A stretch of 64,000 nucleotides of DNA from Chlorobiaceae bacterium. GTDB lineage: Bacteria; Bacteroidota; Chlorobiia; Chlorobiales; Chlorobiaceae. Below, piece after piece: positions 2,947 to 12,255 of the stretch. Position 1 is the stretch's first letter. Every line of letters begins with the position of its first letter. The notes under the pieces were generated by a model. It was not told where the DNA came from and ran no database searches. It saw only the letters and a list, made by a program, of their open reading frames with translations. Position numbers and translations under genes: made by a program. The stretch is from contig JAAXWS010000003.1 in NCBI GenBank assembly GCA_013334865.1, positions 62,001 to 126,000 on the forward strand, in the 5' to 3' direction.

Positions 2947-3648
2947 ATGAACGAACAGAAAGTAATGCTCATTACCGGCGCCTCGACCGGCATCGGGGAG
3001 GCGACGGCCAGGCGCGCCGTCGAGGCGGGATGGGATGTGGTGCTGGCGGCACGCACGATAGACAGGCTCAAGGCGCTTGAAGCCGAACTCGGGACGAACC
3101 GCGCCATCGCGGTCGCCTGCGATGTTTCGGATTGGGGTTCACAGCAGGAGATGGTCAACAGAGCCCTTGAACGCTTCGGCAGGATCGATGCCGCATTCGC
3201 CAATGCCGGCTTCTCGAAAGGTTCAAGTTTTTACGGCGGCGAGGACAAGCCGGATGAATGGCGGGACATGGTGCTCACCAACATCTACGGAGCTGCCGTG
3301 ACGGCCAGGCTCCTCCTGCCGGAACTGGTCAGGACAAAGGGGCACTTCCTGGTCACCGGCTCGGTCGTCGGTCGCACCACCTCGATCCGCAACTTCTACT
3401 CGGCAACCAAATGGGCGGTGACCGGAATGGCTCAGGCGATCCGCAACGAGATGGCAGGTACGGGCATCAGGGTTACCCTTGTAGAACCGGGGGTGGTCGA
3501 CTCGCCATTCTGGGAGCACCTGCAGAAACCCTGCACTGCCGGCCTCCAGTCGGACGACATCGCCCGTGCGGTCATCTTCGCCGTCGGCCAGCCGCCGCAC
3601 GTTGACGTGAACGAACTCCTGATCCGCCCCGTCGGCCAGCCGCTCTGA
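2947..3648 (+). CDS. Short-chain dehydrogenase/reductase (SDR)
   Basis: 233 aa classical SDR. The N-terminal cofactor motif is TGASTGIG (residues about 10-17); NAG follows at about 90, a Ser in the GSVVGR segment, and the catalytic YSATK (Tyr, Lys) at about 150-154. It should be a soluble NAD(P)-dependent oxidoreductase. The substrate cannot be read from the sequence. The arginines after the second strand (AARTIDR) favour NADP(H). There is no close Shine-Dalgarno before the ATG, but no alternative in-frame start. It stands alone between divergent and convergent neighbours. Confidence 0.9.
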   Translation: MNEQKVMLITGASTGIGEATARRAVEAGWDVVLAARTIDRLKALEAELGTNRAIAVACDVSDWGSQQEMVNRALERFGRIDAAFANAGFSKGSSFYGGEDKPDEWRDMVLTNIYGAAVTARLLLPELVRTKGHFLVTGSVVGRTTSIRNFYSATKWAVTGMAQAIRNEMAGTGIRVTLVEPGVVDSPFWEHLQKPCTAGLQSDDIARAVIFAVGQPPHVDVNELLIRPVGQPL

Positions 3649-3731: not shown

Positions 3732-4262
3732 TTATTGCCAGCGGCCGCCGTGCGGCATCCCGCGCATCCCGCGGGACTCCTTCATCCTGAGCAGGGTTTC
3801 GACCTGCTTCCGGTCAAGTATGGATGCCACCGCCCTAAGGTGCCGGCTCTGGAGCAAAGCCAGCTTTTCATGCTGCCTGCCGATCATACCCGAGAGCTCG
3901 GAGATATTCTGTTCGTCGGGCTTCCTTTCGACAGATGCCTTTGCAAGGTCGCCCTGCAGACGGAAAAGCTCCTGGCGCATTGCAACGGCCTCCTGGAAAT
4001 GCGTCTGGCGAAGCTCCCTGAGGCGGGCATCCTGCTTGTCGGTGAGGCCGAGAGCCTGCTTCATCGAGAAGCACTGGCGGCCCATGCCGCCACGCGCAGG
4101 GCCCGGACAGGGCATGAAGCCGGGTGCGCCTGCCTGAGGGGCGGGCGGAGGCGGCGGGACAGGTGCGGGTTCACCGGCGAGAGCCGTCACGCTGCCGGCA
4201 CAAAGAATACCTGTAAGGAGCACCGAAGCAATACGTCTGTTCATCGTTTCATCTGTTTTCAT
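3732..4262 (-). CDS. Spy/CpxP/ZraP-like periplasmic LTXXQ-type protein
   Basis: About 176 aa from the ATG at 4262; an alternative ATG lies at 4244. It has a signal peptide (RRIASVLLTGILCAGSVTALAG), a Pro-rich linker and a Gly/Met-rich segment. A helical domain follows with LGLTDKQ..RLRELR and a second repeat-like ISELSGMIGRQHEKL...LLRMKESRGMRGM. Paired LT..Q-type helices with Met-rich ends are typical of the Spy/CpxP/ZraP family of ATP-independent periplasmic chaperones or metal and stress sensors. No two-component genes are adjacent. The longer in-frame extension upstream (to 4403) has no start-site support. Confidence 0.75.
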   Translation of the reverse strand: MKTDETMNRRIASVLLTGILCAGSVTALAGEPAPVPPPPPAPQAGAPGFMPCPGPARGGMGRQCFSMKQALGLTDKQDARLRELRQTHFQEAVAMRQELFRLQGDLAKASVERKPDEQNISELSGMIGRQHEKLALLQSRHLRAVASILDRKQVETLLRMKESRGMRGMPHGGRWQ

Positions 4263-4496
4263 GGTTGATCCACTTTTGCCGCCGCCCTGATTCGGGGTGG
4301 CAGCCACAACAGATACGACGCCATGATGCTTCGAACCATGCACCGGATTAAAGGAAAAAACGTTAAAACAATAGCCATTCAAGAGCAGCCTGCATTTTTC
4401 CATCGGATGAGGCTGGCTGCCAGATGGTTATCGATCAATTCAGGAATCACTCTACTGAAGGGCGCTATTCTTTCTGAGCTGGATACCGATGCTGCT

Positions 4497-5345
4497 TCAG
4501 CGGTTTAAAGCATCAACACCGGGCCCCGTGGAAGCTGCGGAAACCTGGGGGATTGGATGCCCGCAAAGATTCTGCATGACCCTTGCCCCACCTATACGGG
4601 AAAGCATCCTCTGCGTAAGAGACTGGATGGATTGCTCGTTGCGAGGCCATGGGTACTGGTTGCCTGAATCGGGAAATATGATATAGAGTATCTGTCCTAG
4701 CGGATGGGAGGGACCAGTTCTGGCTGATATCTGCTTTCCGCCAAGGCGAGCAGCGAGTGCAATTGAGATCTCACCCAGCGGGTGCTTTCGCGGGCCGATG
4801 TCTGCAACTACAAATCCTGAGGTATAGCCGTTGTCAAGGTTAATGGCTACACCATAATCACCAATTGCCCCAACTCCATGCATACCGGCGAATGTTTCGG
4901 GAAAGACTATGTATGGTATTCGTGACGCATCAACATAACGACGAGGATCTGTTTCGGGCCACCGTAAGTCTTTTAAGGCGGTCATGGAGAGATAGTATCC
5001 GGCATAGGGTCCGGATTTCATGATGTATGGCCTGCTGCTATCGGATGGATCGCTAACCAGAACGGTGTTCCACCATTCTTGGCCGGGATATCCGGCATTG
5101 GCAAGGTCGTCAAGACCTGTATTCTGGGGATGGTAGGCGGTCGGAGCCCCATCTGCGTCTATGGTCATGAATCCGGTAACATAACAATAGGCGCTTTTGT
5201 CCTGCAGGGCATAAATCCTGGTTCCCCGATACTTCTTCCATGCCTGGGGTTTCCGCGCAGCCGCCTGAACATCAGAGATCACCATAGTGAAAAGCAAGAC
5301 CCCGAACAGCAGCATTACCAGCATGAAATGAAGGCTGGACGCCAT
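4497..5345 (-). CDS. Exported GH75-like chitosanase
   Basis: 282 aa from the ATG at 5345, chosen because AGGAAGAG sits just upstream; an ATG at 5378 has no Shine-Dalgarno. An N-terminal hydrophobic segment (residues 8-24) is a signal peptide or anchor. The region YIVFPE...GVGAIGDYGVAIN...FVVADIGP....GEISIALAARLG matches the glycoside hydrolase 75 (fungal-type chitosanase) core, with the expected catalytic Asp (D182, in ADIGP) and Glu (E192, in GEIS). It would cleave deacetylated glucosamine-rich polymer outside the cytoplasm. It is the last gene of the four-gene exopolysaccharide operon, 55 bp after the deacetylase. The family call is by motif only. Confidence 0.75.
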   Translation of the reverse strand: MASSLHFMLVMLLFGVLLFTMVISDVQAAARKPQAWKKYRGTRIYALQDKSAYCYVTGFMTIDADGAPTAYHPQNTGLDDLANAGYPGQEWWNTVLVSDPSDSSRPYIMKSGPYAGYYLSMTALKDLRWPETDPRRYVDASRIPYIVFPETFAGMHGVGAIGDYGVAINLDNGYTSGFVVADIGPRKHPLGEISIALAARLGGKQISARTGPSHPLGQILYIIFPDSGNQYPWPRNEQSIQSLTQRMLSRIGGARVMQNLCGHPIPQVSAASTGPGVDALNR

Positions 5346-5400
5346 ATGATCTCTTCCTGAAATAGGATTATGATACATTGGTACTTACGAAATTTAGGTG

Positions 5401-7872
5401 TTAGACGACATCCACAGTGTCTTTGAAAAGAAGACTTCCTTCCGGGGTGAAGACTGAAACCAGTGCTGACTCGCCAAGGTGCTGTAACTTACCGCACGCT
5501 GAACACTCATAGGAACTCCAGAAAAAGTGGGTGATATTTTCAGCCCCGCATAGCGGGCATTGAACTAACACCGCTTCATGGAGTCGCGATTCAATGAAAG
5601 ACCAGAAGCTTACTTCAAAGCCGTCGGCACGAGCACGTTCAAGAAGCTCCCATCCCTGAGGAGTGAGCGTGACATTGCGGTCGTCTATTTCGGCATAGCC
5701 GAGCAGGCAGACTTCATGGAAATACTTCAAGGCCAGGGATTTCCACTCCCTTGAACCCGAAACGACATCATAAAGGCGAGGCATAGGCGACCCGGGATTG
5801 GAAATGGCATCAAGCACCAAGACAATCCTGTTCTGATGGATACCCCGGGCATCGTAACTGCGAAGCATGCTGCAGATCTGTTCTGATGATGTGCCGTCAA
5901 GCACCCCTGCACGTATTTTCTGCTCGATGTCATTCCAGCGTATCTTTCCCTGATCCTGGACAGCGTCAATACCTTCAAAATGATGCTGGTCAGCCTTGCG
6001 CCCGAAGACGGGAATGGCAACCATATTGAAGATAACAGCCATCAACATGGTAAATCCACCGGGCAGCACAGGTATGTTATGATAGGTGAGGCTGCCTGTC
6101 GAGGGCTTGACAAAGGGCTTTAGTCCTCGGCCGCCAAACACACGGTTGATTGAATTGAGACCTTGTTCATCAAGGAAAGGTGCACCGCTCTGATTCCCGA
6201 AAATCAGATGATAAGATGAAAAGCCAATGCCGTTGCTTCCCTTTGAAAGGAGATCAATGATGGCCGAGAGGGACTCCTGCGAAATATGGCGGCCGTTGTA
6301 TGGCCCAACAAGTCTCATGACAAGGGGCTTTTCTCCTGCTTTGATCCGGAAGGAGGTCATGGTCCTGCCAATCAATTCCCGGTCTTCTGGGGTGCCGGAA
6401 ATCTCGACGCTTGGCACAAGGAAATCAAATACTTGCGCAAGCAGGGGTATCTCCTGGCCTGAGAGTTCGGCATCTTTGAAATTGAAGACGCGTTCTCCCA
6501 GAAGTTCTGCAGAATATTCCACTTTCGACTTCCCTGCCGTCTTGATAGCCTCGCCTAGAGTGGCGGCATAGTCATACATTTTTGTGCTCCGCCAGTTGAC
6601 CCATGGGTTGTAATATTTGGTCAGCAGGTCGGTAAGGGTCGGTTTGGCAGCCAGCCCTTGTGACTTTGCGAATGCTTCAATGCTTTGGCTGCTGAAATCA
6701 TAATCATGGCCAGTGTAGGAGAGGCCGTCAAGATGGATGCCGTCTACTTTATAGTTCCTGACCAGATCGGTAATTGTCGACTTCATGTATGTTGCAACTT
6801 CCGGGTTCGCCGGAGACATCCAGTTTGCTGAAAGACGACCGTTCTGAGCGGTCATGGCCCATGTATGGTGTTTTCTCAGTGCCTGGGTATCCGACAGTGC
6901 CGGCAACCATGCGTGTATCTTTACCGTCGGCACTTGCTGGCGTAGCAATGCGAGGGTTTTTTCAAACATGTTATTGGCGCTTTTGGGACCATAATAAAAG
7001 TTCCCTTGTGCGTCTTTGGCCATGAGAAACACATCGGTAATCGATGTCCTTGCAATGTTGGCGGCAATGTATTCGGGTGAAAGCGCCCCTTTGCTGAAAT
7101 CAACCCAGACGGCATACCGGCTCAGTTTTTTAGCCTGTATTTCAGCAACATATTTATCGGCTGTGACGAATCGGCCTCCTTCTTTTTTCACAAAATCGAT
7201 AAAGTTCCTGATTGCATTAGGATAGAGTGCCGCATTTTTGGGGTGGAGCAGGATGACTGCCGGCTGCCCAAGGATGCTTTTGCTACGGTAGAGCTCCTTG
7301 AGAGCATCCTCAAACTGCTTTTCACTCATATGCTGCTCAACGATAAGGTCATAATCGGAGGCAAGCATATCACCACGGCGAATGTCGGAAATGGGCAGTT
7401 CGGTCAGGACACTCTGCGCCTCCCAATGTTCAGAATCTGAGCTATCGTAGAGAAAGCCTTGCGCTCTTAGTGATTTCATGACCCGCTCGTCATATTCCAT
7501 GTAGGGCGCACGAAACCAGACAACCTTCTTTTTGGTGATCGATTCGAGAAGGGTTTTGGACATTCGGATTTCACTAGCCAGAGAGTCCTGTGAGATTTTG
7601 GGCAGATGCGGGTGAGCATATGAATGAGAACCGATGGTATTGCCTGCCCGGGCGAGCGTGTCGACAATCTCGGGGTAGGCGAGAGCAAATTTCCCGGTAA
7701 AAAAGTAGGTAGCAGGAACAGCAATGTTCAAGGTTTTGAGTGCCGCAATATCGCCATCGAGTTCGGTGTCGAAGGTGAGTATCACCGGTACAGGCACGGG
7801 TTGAGCTACGCAGTTTGTGAACGATGCGAACATTGACATAAACAGGCATGCCAACGCAAATATGCTTTTCAT
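5401..7872 (-). CDS. PgaB-like polysaccharide deacetylase/hydrolase with membrane anchor and cytoplasmic zinc-ribbon tail
   Basis: 823 aa from the ATG at 7872 (GGAG six bases upstream). A signal peptide or TM is followed by a NodB-type deacetylase domain (about 28-245) with TFDTE (33-37), metal-binding HSYAHP (83-88), RAPY (121-124) and LLHP (208-211). A second domain (about 250-590) with VDGIHLDG (377-384) resembles the TIM-barrel glycoside-hydrolase half of PgaB. A TM segment lies at about 604-624. About 195 residues follow that should be cytoplasmic, with a winged-helix-like stretch and a zinc ribbon (CPLC 772-775, CSAC 789-792). The family role is partial N-deacetylation of poly-N-acetylglucosamine during export. 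The cytoplasmic tail is unusual. It starts 31 bp after the glycosyltransferase gene. Confidence 0.85.
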   Translation of the reverse strand: MKSIFALACLFMSMFASFTNCVAQPVPVPVILTFDTELDGDIAALKTLNIAVPATYFFTGKFALAYPEIVDTLARAGNTIGSHSYAHPHLPKISQDSLASEIRMSKTLLESITKKKVVWFRAPYMEYDERVMKSLRAQGFLYDSSDSEHWEAQSVLTELPISDIRRGDMLASDYDLIVEQHMSEKQFEDALKELYRSKSILGQPAVILLHPKNAALYPNAIRNFIDFVKKEGGRFVTADKYVAEIQAKKLSRYAVWVDFSKGALSPEYIAANIARTSITDVFLMAKDAQGNFYYGPKSANNMFEKTLALLRQQVPTVKIHAWLPALSDTQALRKHHTWAMTAQNGRLSANWMSPANPEVATYMKSTITDLVRNYKVDGIHLDGLSYTGHDYDFSSQSIEAFAKSQGLAAKPTLTDLLTKYYNPWVNWRSTKMYDYAATLGEAIKTAGKSKVEYSAELLGERVFNFKDAELSGQEIPLLAQVFDFLVPSVEISGTPEDRELIGRTMTSFRIKAGEKPLVMRLVGPYNGRHISQESLSAIIDLLSKGSNGIGFSSYHLIFGNQSGAPFLDEQGLNSINRVFGGRGLKPFVKPSTGSLTYHNIPVLPGGFTMLMAVIFNMVAIPVFGRKADQHHFEGIDAVQDQGKIRWNDIEQKIRAGVLDGTSSEQICSMLRSYDARGIHQNRIVLVLDAISNPGSPMPRLYDVVSGSREWKSLALKYFHEVCLLGYAEIDDRNVTLTPQGWELLERARADGFEVSFWSFIESRLHEAVLVQCPLCGAENITHFFWSSYECSACGKLQHLGESALVSVFTPEGSLLFKDTVDVV

Positions 7873-7903
7873 GATGGGCTCCATATGAATGATTACAAGA
7901 TGA

Positions 7904-9265
7904 TCACCAGGTTTTTTTGCGATCCTGAATTTCATGCGTATAGGCTACGATGCGCATATAACTCAAGAAAATACGGTATGGCTGTGTTGTGAATGATGCA
8001 AGTACCAGCGATGGTGTAAGCATCCGGGCCTGCATCAAGGGAATAATTCCCTGGAATGCACTGATGCATTCCAAAATCAGCATGTATAAAAGACCTAGCT
8101 GGAGGAAAAGCAGTGGCATCGAGGAAATAATGACGAGGAGCGGATAGATCGCAAGGAAAATCAATTCCAGAAATGCGCTGCCATACCCGATAAAAAGAGA
8201 CCATGGCAGCCAGAATATGGTGATGGGACCGCCAACATCTGAAAACATCATACCCTTGTGCTCCCGGTACACCTGCAAATGCCCCCTTGACCAGCGCAGA
8301 CGTTGTTTCTTCAGCCCTTTCCATTTCGTCATTGCTGACGTATATGACACAGCCCTCGGCTCGTAGATTGCCCGATAACCAAGTTCCATCATCTCAAGTG
8401 TGATATCGAAATCCTCAGCGAGAGTCCGGCTCTTGTATCCTCCGGTTTCAAGCAGCACGTTGCGGCGAAAGGCGGTTGCAGGGCCAGGGCAGATGCTTAC
8501 TGCGCCCCCCGACTTGAACTGGGCAGCTTTTATGATGCTCTGACCATAGATGTACTCTATGGTCTGCATCTTGAGCAGATAGCTGTTGTGTTGTTTTGGT
8601 AGAACCATCCCGGCAACGGCCCCAACGGTAGGATCGGTGAAACCTTCTACAAGGTATCGAAGCACTTTAGGGTCAAGCGATGAATCGGAATCGGTAAAAA
8701 AAATGATTTCACCTTTCGCCTTTTCAATCCCTCGGTTCAGAGCTTCGACTTTCCCTCTGTTGGTACTCAACCGTATTACTGAAACATCATACCGCTCGAT
8801 GATTGGAATAGTAAGATCACGCGAGCCGTCATCAACGATGATGATTTCATAGGCAGGATAGTCGAGCGCCATTGCCGATTCAATGCATTGGGCGATACTT
8901 TCTTCCTCATTGAAAGAGGGGATGATGACAGATACAAACGGCAGTGAACTGTTTCTCTTGCTTTTCTTTTGCGGAAGCATGGTCAGCCCGATAAAAAACA
9001 TGAAAGGAACTAACGAGCCAACAAGGTAAATAAGGAAAAACATGTCGAGGATCTGATGCATCCATTCCGGAAACGAACGGGTGGCTTCGCCCCATAGGCG
9101 AACATTGAGAGAATCGACCCAGGCAGGCATGAAAGACCATATCATGACTGCGAAAATTATGGAAACCAGGGCAGACAGCAGGACGCCTGCAGGATGCCTG
9201 ATCCGAAAGTGGGTATCTGTAGCCTCCGCCGCACGGGAGGTATATATTGATGCAATCTGGTTCAT
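7904..9265 (-). CDS. Processive family-2 glycosyltransferase (PgaC/IcaA/chitin-synthase-like)
   Basis: 453 aa membrane glycosyltransferase. TM segments lie at about 28-45 and 73-95, then the GT2 catalytic domain, then several C-terminal TM helices. Diagnostic residues are VDDGS (144-148), DSD (192-194), the catalytic ED (284-285) and QRLRW (321-325); together these mark processive beta-glycan synthases such as N-acetylglucosaminyltransferases. It should polymerise UDP-GlcNAc (or a related sugar) at the inner membrane and extrude the chain. It sits between the outer-membrane barrel gene (28 bp upstream) and the deacetylase gene, the same functional set as pgaA/pgaC/pgaB. The sugar specificity is inferred from the deacetylase and chitosanase neighbours. 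Confidence 0.9.
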   Translation of the reverse strand: MNQIASIYTSRAAEATDTHFRIRHPAGVLLSALVSIIFAVMIWSFMPAWVDSLNVRLWGEATRSFPEWMHQILDMFFLIYLVGSLVPFMFFIGLTMLPQKKSKRNSSLPFVSVIIPSFNEEESIAQCIESAMALDYPAYEIIIVDDGSRDLTIPIIERYDVSVIRLSTNRGKVEALNRGIEKAKGEIIFFTDSDSSLDPKVLRYLVEGFTDPTVGAVAGMVLPKQHNSYLLKMQTIEYIYGQSIIKAAQFKSGGAVSICPGPATAFRRNVLLETGGYKSRTLAEDFDITLEMMELGYRAIYEPRAVSYTSAMTKWKGLKKQRLRWSRGHLQVYREHKGMMFSDVGGPITIFWLPWSLFIGYGSAFLELIFLAIYPLLVIISSMPLLFLQLGLLYMLILECISAFQGIIPLMQARMLTPSLVLASFTTQPYRIFLSYMRIVAYTHEIQDRKKTW

Positions 9266-9293
9266 TACTTCTCCTTAGGGGTTCACATTTATT

Positions 9294-10268
9294 TCAAAGA
9301 ATTGGAAACCAGCCGGCAAGGCCTGCCTTTACATCATGGATCAGAAAATGCTGAGGCTCAAAGGCGTTGACGAGCAGATACTCTGCATAGAGAGACAGTT
9401 TGCCGGGAATAAAACGGTCAAGAACCACTCTTGCCCCAGGGCCGTACTGAACATAGTTGAACCAGGAAGCTTTGTTCCAATCCTTGGAGAGGAAATCATT
9501 AACCAGATCAACGGCGACATAGGGTTCGAAAGCGACTTTCCCAATATCTACCCCTGTACCAATTTTGGAAGAGAGCGAACCGAGAAGGAAATTATCTTGA
9601 CCTTTGTCACTGAATGCGGAGGTATGCCATGCCAGCTCACCCCAGTTTTCCGTCCAGATGCCGAACGTCTTGTTGAGCGGTCTTTCTTTTGAAAGCCAAA
9701 CGGAAACACCGGTCTTCACATTCTGCCGGTCCACAGTTGCTGGAACCCTGTCTTTCGTATTGTCGAATGATGAGGTCATCACCTCATATTCAGAAAACAG
9801 GGCTGTGCTTATTCCCCCGATATACTCTCCAGATGCGTTCATAAATGAATGCTCGGTGGTAAGCTTCAGTCCTGCCGCAAAGATCTGGTTATTATTCCAG
9901 TACGACTTGTTCCATGATTTCCCTCCAAAATCATAGGTTACACTCGTGCGAGCGTACGGGGTAAGGCAAAATGTTTCACTGAGGTAGTGCCGTGCTTCAA
10001 GAGTCACGGGAAGAGAAAATATGTAATACCCGCTACCGGTTGATATGCTGCTATCATCACGGGTATTATTGAAATTATATTTGGTATAGTATGCGTCAAG
10101 ACCTACATCGAGATGTATGCCGTCAGCAGGCTTCTGATACCGGTCAACTGCGAACGCCGAGCCATAATGTACAAAGGTCGCTGCCCCATCGACCGCTGAT
10201 GCGTTCCCCGGGGCGCAGAGGCTTGCCAGAAGGCAGGCGGTTCCTGTTACTTTTGCTATGATACTCAT
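9294..10268 (-). CDS. Outer-membrane beta-barrel protein of the exopolysaccharide operon
   Basis: 324 aa with a signal peptide (cleavage after GNASA) and a body of alternating aromatic/polar strands (for example LDVGLDAYYTKY, LPVTLEARHYL, KLSLYAEYLLV), ending in a hydrophobic aromatic-containing strand (GLAGWFPIL) as expected for an outer-membrane barrel. As first gene of the operon it is the natural candidate for the polysaccharide export porin, the role PgaA plays in E. coli. It lacks PgaA's long TPR domain, so the equivalence is inferred from context. The upstream region carries the motif at 10472-10488. Confidence 0.75.
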   Translation of the reverse strand: MSIIAKVTGTACLLASLCAPGNASAVDGAATFVHYGSAFAVDRYQKPADGIHLDVGLDAYYTKYNFNNTRDDSSISTGSGYYIFSLPVTLEARHYLSETFCLTPYARTSVTYDFGGKSWNKSYWNNNQIFAAGLKLTTEHSFMNASGEYIGGISTALFSEYEVMTSSFDNTKDRVPATVDRQNVKTGVSVWLSKERPLNKTFGIWTENWGELAWHTSAFSDKGQDNFLLGSLSSKIGTGVDIGKVAFEPYVAVDLVNDFLSKDWNKASWFNYVQYGPGARVVLDRFIPGKLSLYAEYLLVNAFEPQHFLIHDVKAGLAGWFPIL

Positions 10269-10488: not shown

Positions 10489-10663
10489 ATCTACACAAAA
10501 AGCACTAAGTCATTTATAAATAATATCTTATAAAATCACACAAGTCTGTCTTCCATGCACATCTATCCGTTTGAAACCGATAACCAATCGGCATTATGAG
10601 AAAAACATCTCACCATGATAACCAGCAGGCCCAATCGAAAATGACCTTACGCAGAAGAGCTAA

Positions 10664-10697
10664 TGCAAAAAGCCGGGAGATACCCCGGCTTTTTGCA
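10664..10697. terminator. Bidirectional rho-independent terminator
   Basis: TGCAAAAAGCCGGG/CCCGGCTTTTTGCA forms a long stem with a T-run on each strand. It lies directly past the stop of the lipoprotein gene (10734-11159, minus strand). Confidence 0.85.
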
Positions 10698-10733
10698 TGA
10701 TCATTTATATCTATAATGTAATGGCGGTGCCCG

Positions 10734-11159
10734 TCAGATAGCCTGGCGGTGATACTCCAGGGACCAGATGTTACTGGACGGATCGCGCAGGGTGATCTTG
10801 ACACCGTAGCCGTCCCTCAGGAAGCTGATGGTGTCGTGGTCGTCGCGGAACGACACGAAATTCTCCTCGCTTCCAAACTTGCCGGCGTAATGGCTGAACA
10901 CTTCGTCCCTCCGGCCGAGCGTGTGGAAGGTGACCACGACCACGCGGTCCACCGTCGACACGCCGACAATGCTCCGGCTCCGGTAGAGGTCCAGCCACTC
11001 GGGCTTCCCGGAAGCTGCCGCCCGCAAGCTTCCCGATGCCGGGCGCACCGACCCGGGAGCGTCTCCCGGAGGCTCGCCCTGCCTCACGGCACAGCCTCCG
11101 AGACCCGCCAAAATCATGATTACCGCCAACACCGGACCGACGACTATCCTTCCCTCCAT
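10734..11159 (-). CDS. Small lipoprotein of unknown function
   Basis: 141 aa with a hydrophobic N-terminus ending in a lipobox (LGGC, Cys at about 23). A Pro/Ala/Ser-rich linker and a compact 85-residue alpha/beta domain ([14 protein letters not shown]...VVVTFHTLG...) follow. It should be a lipid-anchored envelope protein. I do not recognise the domain. The gene ends 37 bp from a strong terminator and has no same-strand partner. Confidence 0.7.
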
Positions 11160-11388
11160 GCCTCATGCCTCCAGGTTTCAACGTCCAATTGTCGCACGCC
11201 ATTAACTATCAACAGCAAGAGAGCTTACCACATTCACAGCATAAAAACGGGAACGAACTCCGCTGAGTATTCCCAATCGCGGAAATGGCCTGAGGGTTCC
11301 CCGAACAGGCATGAGTTTTTGCCTGTGATTGCGTATTTTGCACAGGCTGCCTGCTGGTGGCTCGTGCACCGCAACAACTTTCCGTCTT

Positions 11389-12255
11389 ATGGCTCCTCAG
11401 GACAAGTATATCTTAGTCGGCGGCCACCGGCATCGTTATCTCGAGGCCGGAAAAGATGGCCCGCCCATGCTGCTCGTGCACGGCATCTCTTCGTCGCTGG
11501 ACTATTTCGGCCCGTCGATCCCGCTGCTGGCAAAATCCTTCCGCCTTCTGGCAATCGACCTCCTGGGCTTCGGTGGCTCCGACAAGCCGAAAGGCAAGGC
11601 CTACTCGCTTCGGCTGTATGCAGACCTCATCCGGGAGTTCATCGAAAAGACCGGCGCCAGTTCGCACGGCCCGGTCTTCGCCACCGGGCATTCGATGGGC
11701 GGCAAGTACCTTCTGGCGACGGAGCTTACCCATCCGGGCACCTTCGGCAAGCTGGTGCTGAGCAACACGGACGGGTTCATCACCCTGCCGTCGTTCGCCC
11801 GGGTCCTGAGCATGCCGGGGGTGCGGCATATCCTGAAACCGATCGTTACCCGCAGGGATATCGCAGAAAAAATGCTCGCCGCCGCGGTCCACCGCCTCGA
11901 CAAGGTCCCCCCCGACACCTGCCGAAGGATACTGGAGGTCGCCCGGGACCACGACGCCTTCGAGACGGTCATGGGCCTGAACCGCAACCTCGTGAACCTC
12001 GACCTGAAACGCACGGGGCTCAGGGCGCGTCTGCACGAGCTCGACATCCCGACACTGATCATCTGGGGCGACCGGGACCGCTACATGTCGCCGAAATTCG
12101 CAGAGATCGCCCGGAGGGAGATCCCCGGGTCGAAACTCGTCATGATCAGGGACTGCGGCCACTCCCCCATGCTCGAACACCCGGAGGAGTTTGCCTCCGC
12201 GATCGTGCAGTTCATTTTTTCCGAACCTCAAAAGGGAAACAACCCATGCTCATAA
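11389..12255 (+). CDS. Alpha/beta-hydrolase fold protein
   Basis: 288 aa from ATG 11389; a TTG-initiated extension to 11329 is open but unsupported. The oxyanion HG appears in LVHGISSS, the nucleophile elbow is GHSMGG (Ser), the acid is in WGDRDRY and the His in [13 protein letters not shown]. These form a complete catalytic triad. It should be a soluble esterase or hydrolase; the substrate is unknown. The 3' end overlaps the tmk start by 10 bp, implying translational coupling. Similar hydrolases act on many esters and C-C bonds, so no narrower function is offered. Confidence 0.85.

Follow-up and report, generated by a model that had tools for sequence, protein, structure and literature searches.

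A recently moved four-gene cassette of green sulfur bacteria probably encodes a synthase-dependent exopolysaccharide module of the chitosan type

Four open reading frames lie on the minus strand at 9294-10268, 7904-9265, 5401-7935 and 4497-5378 of a 64-kb stretch of DNA from a Chlorobiaceae bacterium (the whole analysed stretch is called the window throughout). They encode, in this order, a predicted 12-stranded outer-membrane barrel, a processive GT2 glycosyltransferase, a fusion of a CE4 (NodB) domain with a GHL10 domain and a GH75-type chitosanase. ORF analysis and domain searches show that these genes are real and stand in the order given in an initial annotation of the sequence. We consider it probable that they form a horizontally spread, self-contained exopolysaccharide module of the synthase-dependent class, whose product would be a partly deacetylated GlcNAc polymer, probably of the chitosan type. 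Typical components of this class, i.e. a processive GT2, a periplasmic modifying enzyme, a resident hydrolase and a barrel, are all predicted within the one operon. The idea of a self-contained synthase, deacetylase, barrel and chitosanase module for an amino-sugar exopolysaccharide was already part of the initial annotation and is supported by the GH75 homology and the GT2 tree described below.

The previously noted gaps of 28, 31 and 55 bp between the genes hold with starts at ATG 7872 for gene 3 and ATG 5345 for gene 4. Longer reading frames begin at 7935 (gene 3, overlapping gene 2) and at 5378 (gene 4); the gene 3 start at ATG 7872 reads MKSIF, and orthologues favour a start at MEPIMKS or MKS. 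At the edge of the cassette, a terminator-like 15-bp perfect inverted repeat (10663-10698) separates the operon from the lipoprotein-like gene upstream of it. An Rfam search yielded no RNA element 5′ of the operon, and promoter-like sites were not in excess over shuffled sequences. As had been claimed, TPR and PgaD are absent: Pfam searches matched no TPR in the barrel gene or in any of the four genes, and no PgaD was found in the operon or, above cut-off, in the eight genomes that carry it. Each of these eight genomes contains one GGDEF match, so that control of the operon by c-di-GMP is possible, yet PgaD is absent.

Gene 4 (4497-5378, minus strand; alternative start at 5345) encodes a predicted exported GH75-type chitosanase of 293 aa. 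A phmmer search of PDB sequences matched it to V-Csn, a chitosanase of a soil virus with a solved structure (7tvm), with an E-value of 5e-21. The acids D34, D36, D148 and E157 of V-Csn are described as common to all of GH75, and V-Csn is less active when D148 or E157 is replaced (PMC9485262). Their counterparts in gene 4 are D74, D76, D193 and E203, and none of the four varies in a broad alignment that covers Chlorobium, viruses and other bacteria. The match to V-Csn and the four invariant acids rule out a chance motif, a concern that the initial annotation had raised. Against the Pfam GH75 model (cut-off 27 bits) gene 4 of the window scores 23.7 bits and an orthologue (L043) 31.1 bits, and some viral GH75-like proteins also remain below the cut-off. 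By its sequence gene 4 thus belongs to GH75, with chitosan as the presumed substrate. The description of this family as best known from fungi had to be corrected, as it is not mainly fungal and bacterial and viral copies are common. A non-exhaustive search with one peptide pattern across public genomes of bacteria and archaea, in which some contigs were short, recovered 43 GH75 loci, and only those of Chlorobiaceae adjoin GT2, CE4 or barrel genes of the operon type; the association is therefore specific to this cassette. At one locus (L138) a single distant GT2 match is found ~6 kb away. A record labelled as a Woesearchaeota archaeon MAG contains a GH75 domain that opens a 783-aa ORF (L125:9959-12310).

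The synthase gene (gene 2; 7904-9265, minus strand) encodes a processive membrane GT2 protein of 453 aa (Pfam GT2, E 2e-36) with two transmembrane segments at the N-terminus and at least two at the C-terminus according to hydropathy; the motifs DSD, ED and Q(R)xRW are invariant in the orthologue alignment. PgaC_IcaA is the best NCBIfam model with 177.7 bits and misses its equivalog cut-off of 422.3 bits (TIGR03937), the NodC model yields 114.6 bits (cut-off 550, missed as well) and CelA 75. We placed the protein in a maximum-likelihood tree, in which the Chlorobium GT2s form a single clade (support 99/99). A branch of NodC plus cellulose synthases is set off from the remaining GT2s (support 94/88), a reading that long branches limit, notably for the separation of NodC. 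The Chlorobium clade, PgaC, GH18-CE4-GT2 fusion proteins and Bacteroidota synthases, some of them from loci encoding TPR proteins, share a poorly supported region of the tree, and the best plasmid-borne match of the GT2 is a GH18-CE4-GT2 fusion protein. Grouping with cellulose or other non-aminosugar synthases, the possible objection named in the initial annotation, was not observed, and an assignment as BcsA was rejected. NodC was rejected on the basis of its score below the cut-off and its separate branch, the latter with caution because of the long branches.

A second GT2/deacetylase pair is present in the same genome, where a 702-aa GT2 is followed by a 583-aa CE4-GHL10 protein (L055:6511-10426; G000:C16:182510-186425). 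This shorter protein is ~40% identical to gene 3 and carries no transmembrane segment or cytosolic tail; more than a dozen other Chlorobia also have such short CE4-GHL10 paralogues. A Bacteroidota locus (L184:3224-10018) encodes four proteins in a row: one with TPR, a GT2 of the PgaC-like type, one of 134 aa that matches no family, and a CE4 protein of 632 aa. Three further loci (L185, L187 and L196) share this layout, which possibly represents an undescribed exopolysaccharide system.

Gene 3 (5401-7884, minus strand; 827 aa from MEPIMKS, or 844 aa for the ORF reaching to 7935) encodes an exported protein composed of deacetylase, hydrolase-like, transmembrane and cytosolic-domain parts. Its CE4/NodB domain (7150-7794, aa 48-262 of the 844-aa ORF) matches PF01522 (Polysacc_deac_1) with an E-value of 1.1e-22 and CE4 deacetylases of the PDB with E-values down to 4e-13 (phmmer/hmmsearch); among solved structures, deacetylases of peptidoglycan and chitin are its nearest relatives, rather than PgaB. 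The motifs HSxxH, with the catalytic histidines, RAPY and LLHP are conserved among orthologues, whereas motif 1 reads TFDTE instead of TFDD and the second Asp is missing. The GHL10/PgaB-hydrolase-like half (6181-7119, aa 273-585; PF02638, E 3.5e-14) aligns via a local GHL10 profile to the hydrolase half of both Klebsiella and E. coli PgaB, but the PgaB-type HD motif is not evident (GIHLD versus FHDD). The two Pfam domains and the alignment to PgaB agree with the previous description of a NodB deacetylase with a PgaB-like hydrolase half.

The remainder of gene 3 had been overlooked and became apparent from hydropathy and an AlphaFold (AF2) model. A transmembrane segment (6013-6069, aa 623-641; Kyte-Doolittle peak 1.97), followed by the residues GRK, is a helix in the AF2 model and is kept in the eight orthologues; a domain of ~200 aa follows. 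As gene 3 starts with a signal sequence and GRK stands behind the membrane segment, the N-terminus should be outside and the C-terminus inside, with the tail in the cytosol. The AF2 model of the tail (pLDDT 71) comprises a winged-helix-like domain (5575-5853, aa 695-787), for which VIA-align returned topoisomerase domains, CggR, VanR and PadR/MarR proteins (Z 8-10, rmsd 2-3, 70-90 residues). A zinc-ribbon-like domain (5467-5574, aa 788-823) follows it; its cysteines C793, C796, C811 and C814 are invariant in 11 sequences, and the Pfam matches to zinc ribbons are weak. The tail is the most unusual feature of the operon: among 296 sampled Bacteroidota genomes its domain occurs in eight, all of them operon-bearing. 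Two weak zinc-ribbon matches from other Bacteroidota were discarded as a topoisomerase and a P-type ATPase, and a relationship to PgaD was dismissed for lack of any profile similarity. Three of the eight operon-bearing genomes contain a second, stand-alone copy of the tail domain near the operon (L040:12478-13266, L041:4926-5714 and L042:7123-7893; 256-262 aa), and the copy of L040 starts with hydrophobic segments resembling a signal sequence plus a transmembrane helix. Our guess is that the tail probably links the processing of the polymer either to the synthase, in a PgaD-like role, or to gene expression at the level of transcription.

Gene 1 (9294-10268, minus strand) encodes an outer-membrane beta-barrel of 324 aa with a predicted signal sequence, a putative export pore. 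A Pfam search gave no match, and neither sequence relatives in the PDB nor relatives with known export function were found. The structure prediction that had been suggested as a check of this gene resulted in an AF2 model with a 12-stranded barrel (pLDDT 73). The best VIA-align match of the model is the COG4313 channel 4rl8 (Z 13.4, rmsd 4.5, 239 aligned), with ties at Z 11-13 among the COG4313 channel, OmpG, CymA, FapF and autotransporter barrels. Because the matches are tied among unrelated barrels, the modelled fold indicates an outer-membrane barrel and nothing narrower. PgaA was considered as a candidate and rejected: gene 1 shows no similarity to E. coli PgaA, and its 324 aa contain no TPR.

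All four genes are found together and in the same order in exactly eight of 98 Chlorobia genomes (G000, which is the genome of the window, G013, G024, G025, G028, G029, G038 and G049); in G025 the operon is split across two contig ends. The same eight genomes carry full-length gene 3, the barrel gene is restricted to them, and the operon-type GH75 occurs in them as well, with three additional weak and distant matches in other genomes. Since the four genes share their order in the same eight genomes, their co-occurrence exceeds chance, and the synteny in other Chlorobi proposed earlier for examination is confirmed. Orthologues of gene 3 are between 94% and 45% identical to the copy in the window, those of the GT2 between 96% and 63%. 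Public records with the operon include Pelodictyon luteolum CIII, Chlorobium phaeovibrioides BrKhr17, Chlorobium sp. N1 and MAGs. A literature search on Chlorobium in connection with chitosan returned nothing relevant.

The cassette moved recently as one unit, an origin that was missing from the initial annotation. It is flanked on the left by an LTXXQ/Metal_resist gene (3732-4403, minus strand) and on the right by a 141-aa lipoprotein-like gene (lip141; 10734-11159, minus strand), which adjoin each other in cassette-free relatives. The GC content of the cassette is 49.4% compared with 58.7% for the window, which places it among the lowest-GC 5.8-kb stretches of the window. Farther out, an SDR gene (2947-3648) and an alpha/beta-hydrolase gene (11329-12255) are separated by 7.7 kb in the window but by only ~0.8-1.8 kb in members of the genus that lack the cassette and have both genes on one contig; in the cassette-free examples inspected, the LTXXQ gene adjoins the 141-aa lipoprotein-like gene between these two. 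Between the window and G013, dS amounts to 0.10-0.12 for the four cassette genes versus 0.47 and 0.85 for two flanking genes. Taken together, the empty site in relatives, the low GC content and the low dS demonstrate recent acquisition as a unit. The dN/dS ratios of the four cassette genes in the same comparison are 0.17-0.43, hence all four are under purifying selection. In G013 the 141-aa lipoprotein-like gene is present on both sides of the operon (L261:4065-4487 and 11516-11936), with one copy apparently frameshifted; this duplication may have been left behind when the cassette integrated by homologous recombination.

According to the mechanism that we propose, the GT2 would polymerise UDP-GlcNAc and drive the chain through the inner membrane. 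Partial deacetylation would fall to the membrane-anchored CE4-GHL10 protein, whose hydrolase-like half may bind or cut the chain, and exit would occur via the 12-stranded barrel. The exported GH75 enzyme would act as resident hydrolase and cut deacetylated stretches, trimming or clearing the polymer, a role comparable to that of BcsZ, AlgL and the PgaB hydrolase half in the cellulose, alginate and PNAG systems, respectively. A carbohydrate-cleaving enzyme within exopolysaccharide operons is an established, recurring pattern (PMC5933820). As the dedicated hydrolase is a chitosanase, a beta-1,4-linked chitosan-type product appears likelier than beta-1,6-linked PNAG, and we lean slightly towards a polymer of beta-1,4-linked GlcN/GlcNAc. 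Against the mechanism stand the low PgaC score of the GT2, the missing second Asp of CE4 motif 1, the lack of an evident HD motif in the GHL half, a barrel with tied fold matches and no relatives of known export function, and the missing TPR scaffold.

A different interpretation is that the operon makes PNAG in a divergent, beta-1,6-linked system, with a relative of PgaC as synthase, gene 3 as the equivalent of PgaB and the barrel replacing PgaA; the GH75 enzyme would then act on deacetylated PNAG or be incidental. PgaC_IcaA is indeed the best NCBIfam model, ahead of NodC, and gene 3 has the NodB-plus-hydrolase order of PgaB with a hydrolase half that aligns to it. Furthermore, bfpABCD is a pga-type cluster. 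In Citrobacter these genes direct the synthesis of a 'chitin/chitosan-like' polymer (PMC6414854); pga genes are therefore compatible with a chitosan-like chemistry. However, the synthase misses the PgaC cut-off, the NodB half matches peptidoglycan and chitin deacetylases rather than PgaB, and a GH75 chitosanase is present in every copy of the operon; we regard the PNAG interpretation as rather unlikely. The former label of a complete PNAG-like operon in compact form was abandoned for the same missed cut-off, and with neither TPR nor PgaD, and a NodB half unlike that of PgaB, the cassette is not a Pga system.

It is quite unlikely, in our view, that the cassette is a chitooligosaccharide or cell-wall-modifying system, one that synthesises short chains of the chitin type, deacetylates and trims them, and leaves them in the periplasm or on the surface as decoration, with no exopolysaccharide being formed. 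The closest plasmid-borne GT2 match, a GH18-CE4-GT2 fusion from a group that shares the broad, poorly supported tree region with the Chlorobium clade and PgaC, would fit such a system, and chain length could be set by GH75. Yet the outer-membrane barrel is co-inherited in every copy, which argues for export, the cassette contains no acyl- or sulfo-transferase genes, and NodC branches with cellulose synthases, away from the Chlorobium clade. GH75 could also serve to scavenge chitosan from outside or to defend against it, and merely hitch-hike with the synthesis operon, as the other bacterial GH75 genes recovered lack such an operon and viral copies exist. This is very unlikely given that every high-scoring GH75 of Chlorobia is the last gene of the operon, with three weak distant matches elsewhere, and that green sulfur bacteria are photoautotrophs, not chitosan degraders. 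A variant of the chitosan reading assigns gene 3 the role of a membrane-crossing sensor, whose tail would read processing and directly control transcription of the operon or the synthase; its partners would be the stand-alone tail paralogues that three genomes encode close to the operon. We consider this variant unlikely.

The chitosan-type module that we favour resembles several known systems in part. With E. coli pgaABCD it shares a GT2 of the same broad family, a NodB domain with a homologous hydrolase half and an outer-membrane barrel in one operon. It differs in the missing TPR and PgaD, in a 12-stranded barrel unrelated in sequence to PgaA and in another type of NodB half, and adds GH75 and a membrane anchor with a cytosolic domain. 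Like the bcs cellulose operon with its BcsZ, it combines a synthase with an outer-membrane channel and a dedicated endo-hydrolase that acts on the system's own product, but the GT2 falls outside the BcsA group, BcsB and TPR are lacking and the enzymes are directed at amino sugars. The GH18-CE4-GT2 fusions of Bacteroidota and Alphaproteobacteria, among the closest GT2 relatives found, unite the same kinds of activity; they are single polypeptides with GH18 instead of GHL10 plus GH75, and have no winged-helix/zinc-ribbon part. Homology over ~200 residues with four active-site acids links the Chlorobium GH75 to V-Csn and to bacterial and fungal GH75 proteins; V-Csn, in contrast, is a stand-alone viral auxiliary gene, whereas the Chlorobium enzyme is encoded by the last gene of a synthesis operon.

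A TPR protein is encoded by each of the PNAG, alginate, cellulose and Pel operons (PMC9384988), and the Chlorobium operon lacks this common scaffold. An enzyme that is predicted to process polysaccharide in the periplasm and is fused to a cytosolic domain of the DNA-binding-like type was not found elsewhere among the genomes searched. If our proposal is true, the cassette would be a bacterial exopolysaccharide operon with a chitosanase as its built-in hydrolase, and it would become testable whether true chitosan is among the extracellular polymers of bacteria. Since the cassette moves among green sulfur bacteria, it may decide their surface and aggregation traits strain by strain.
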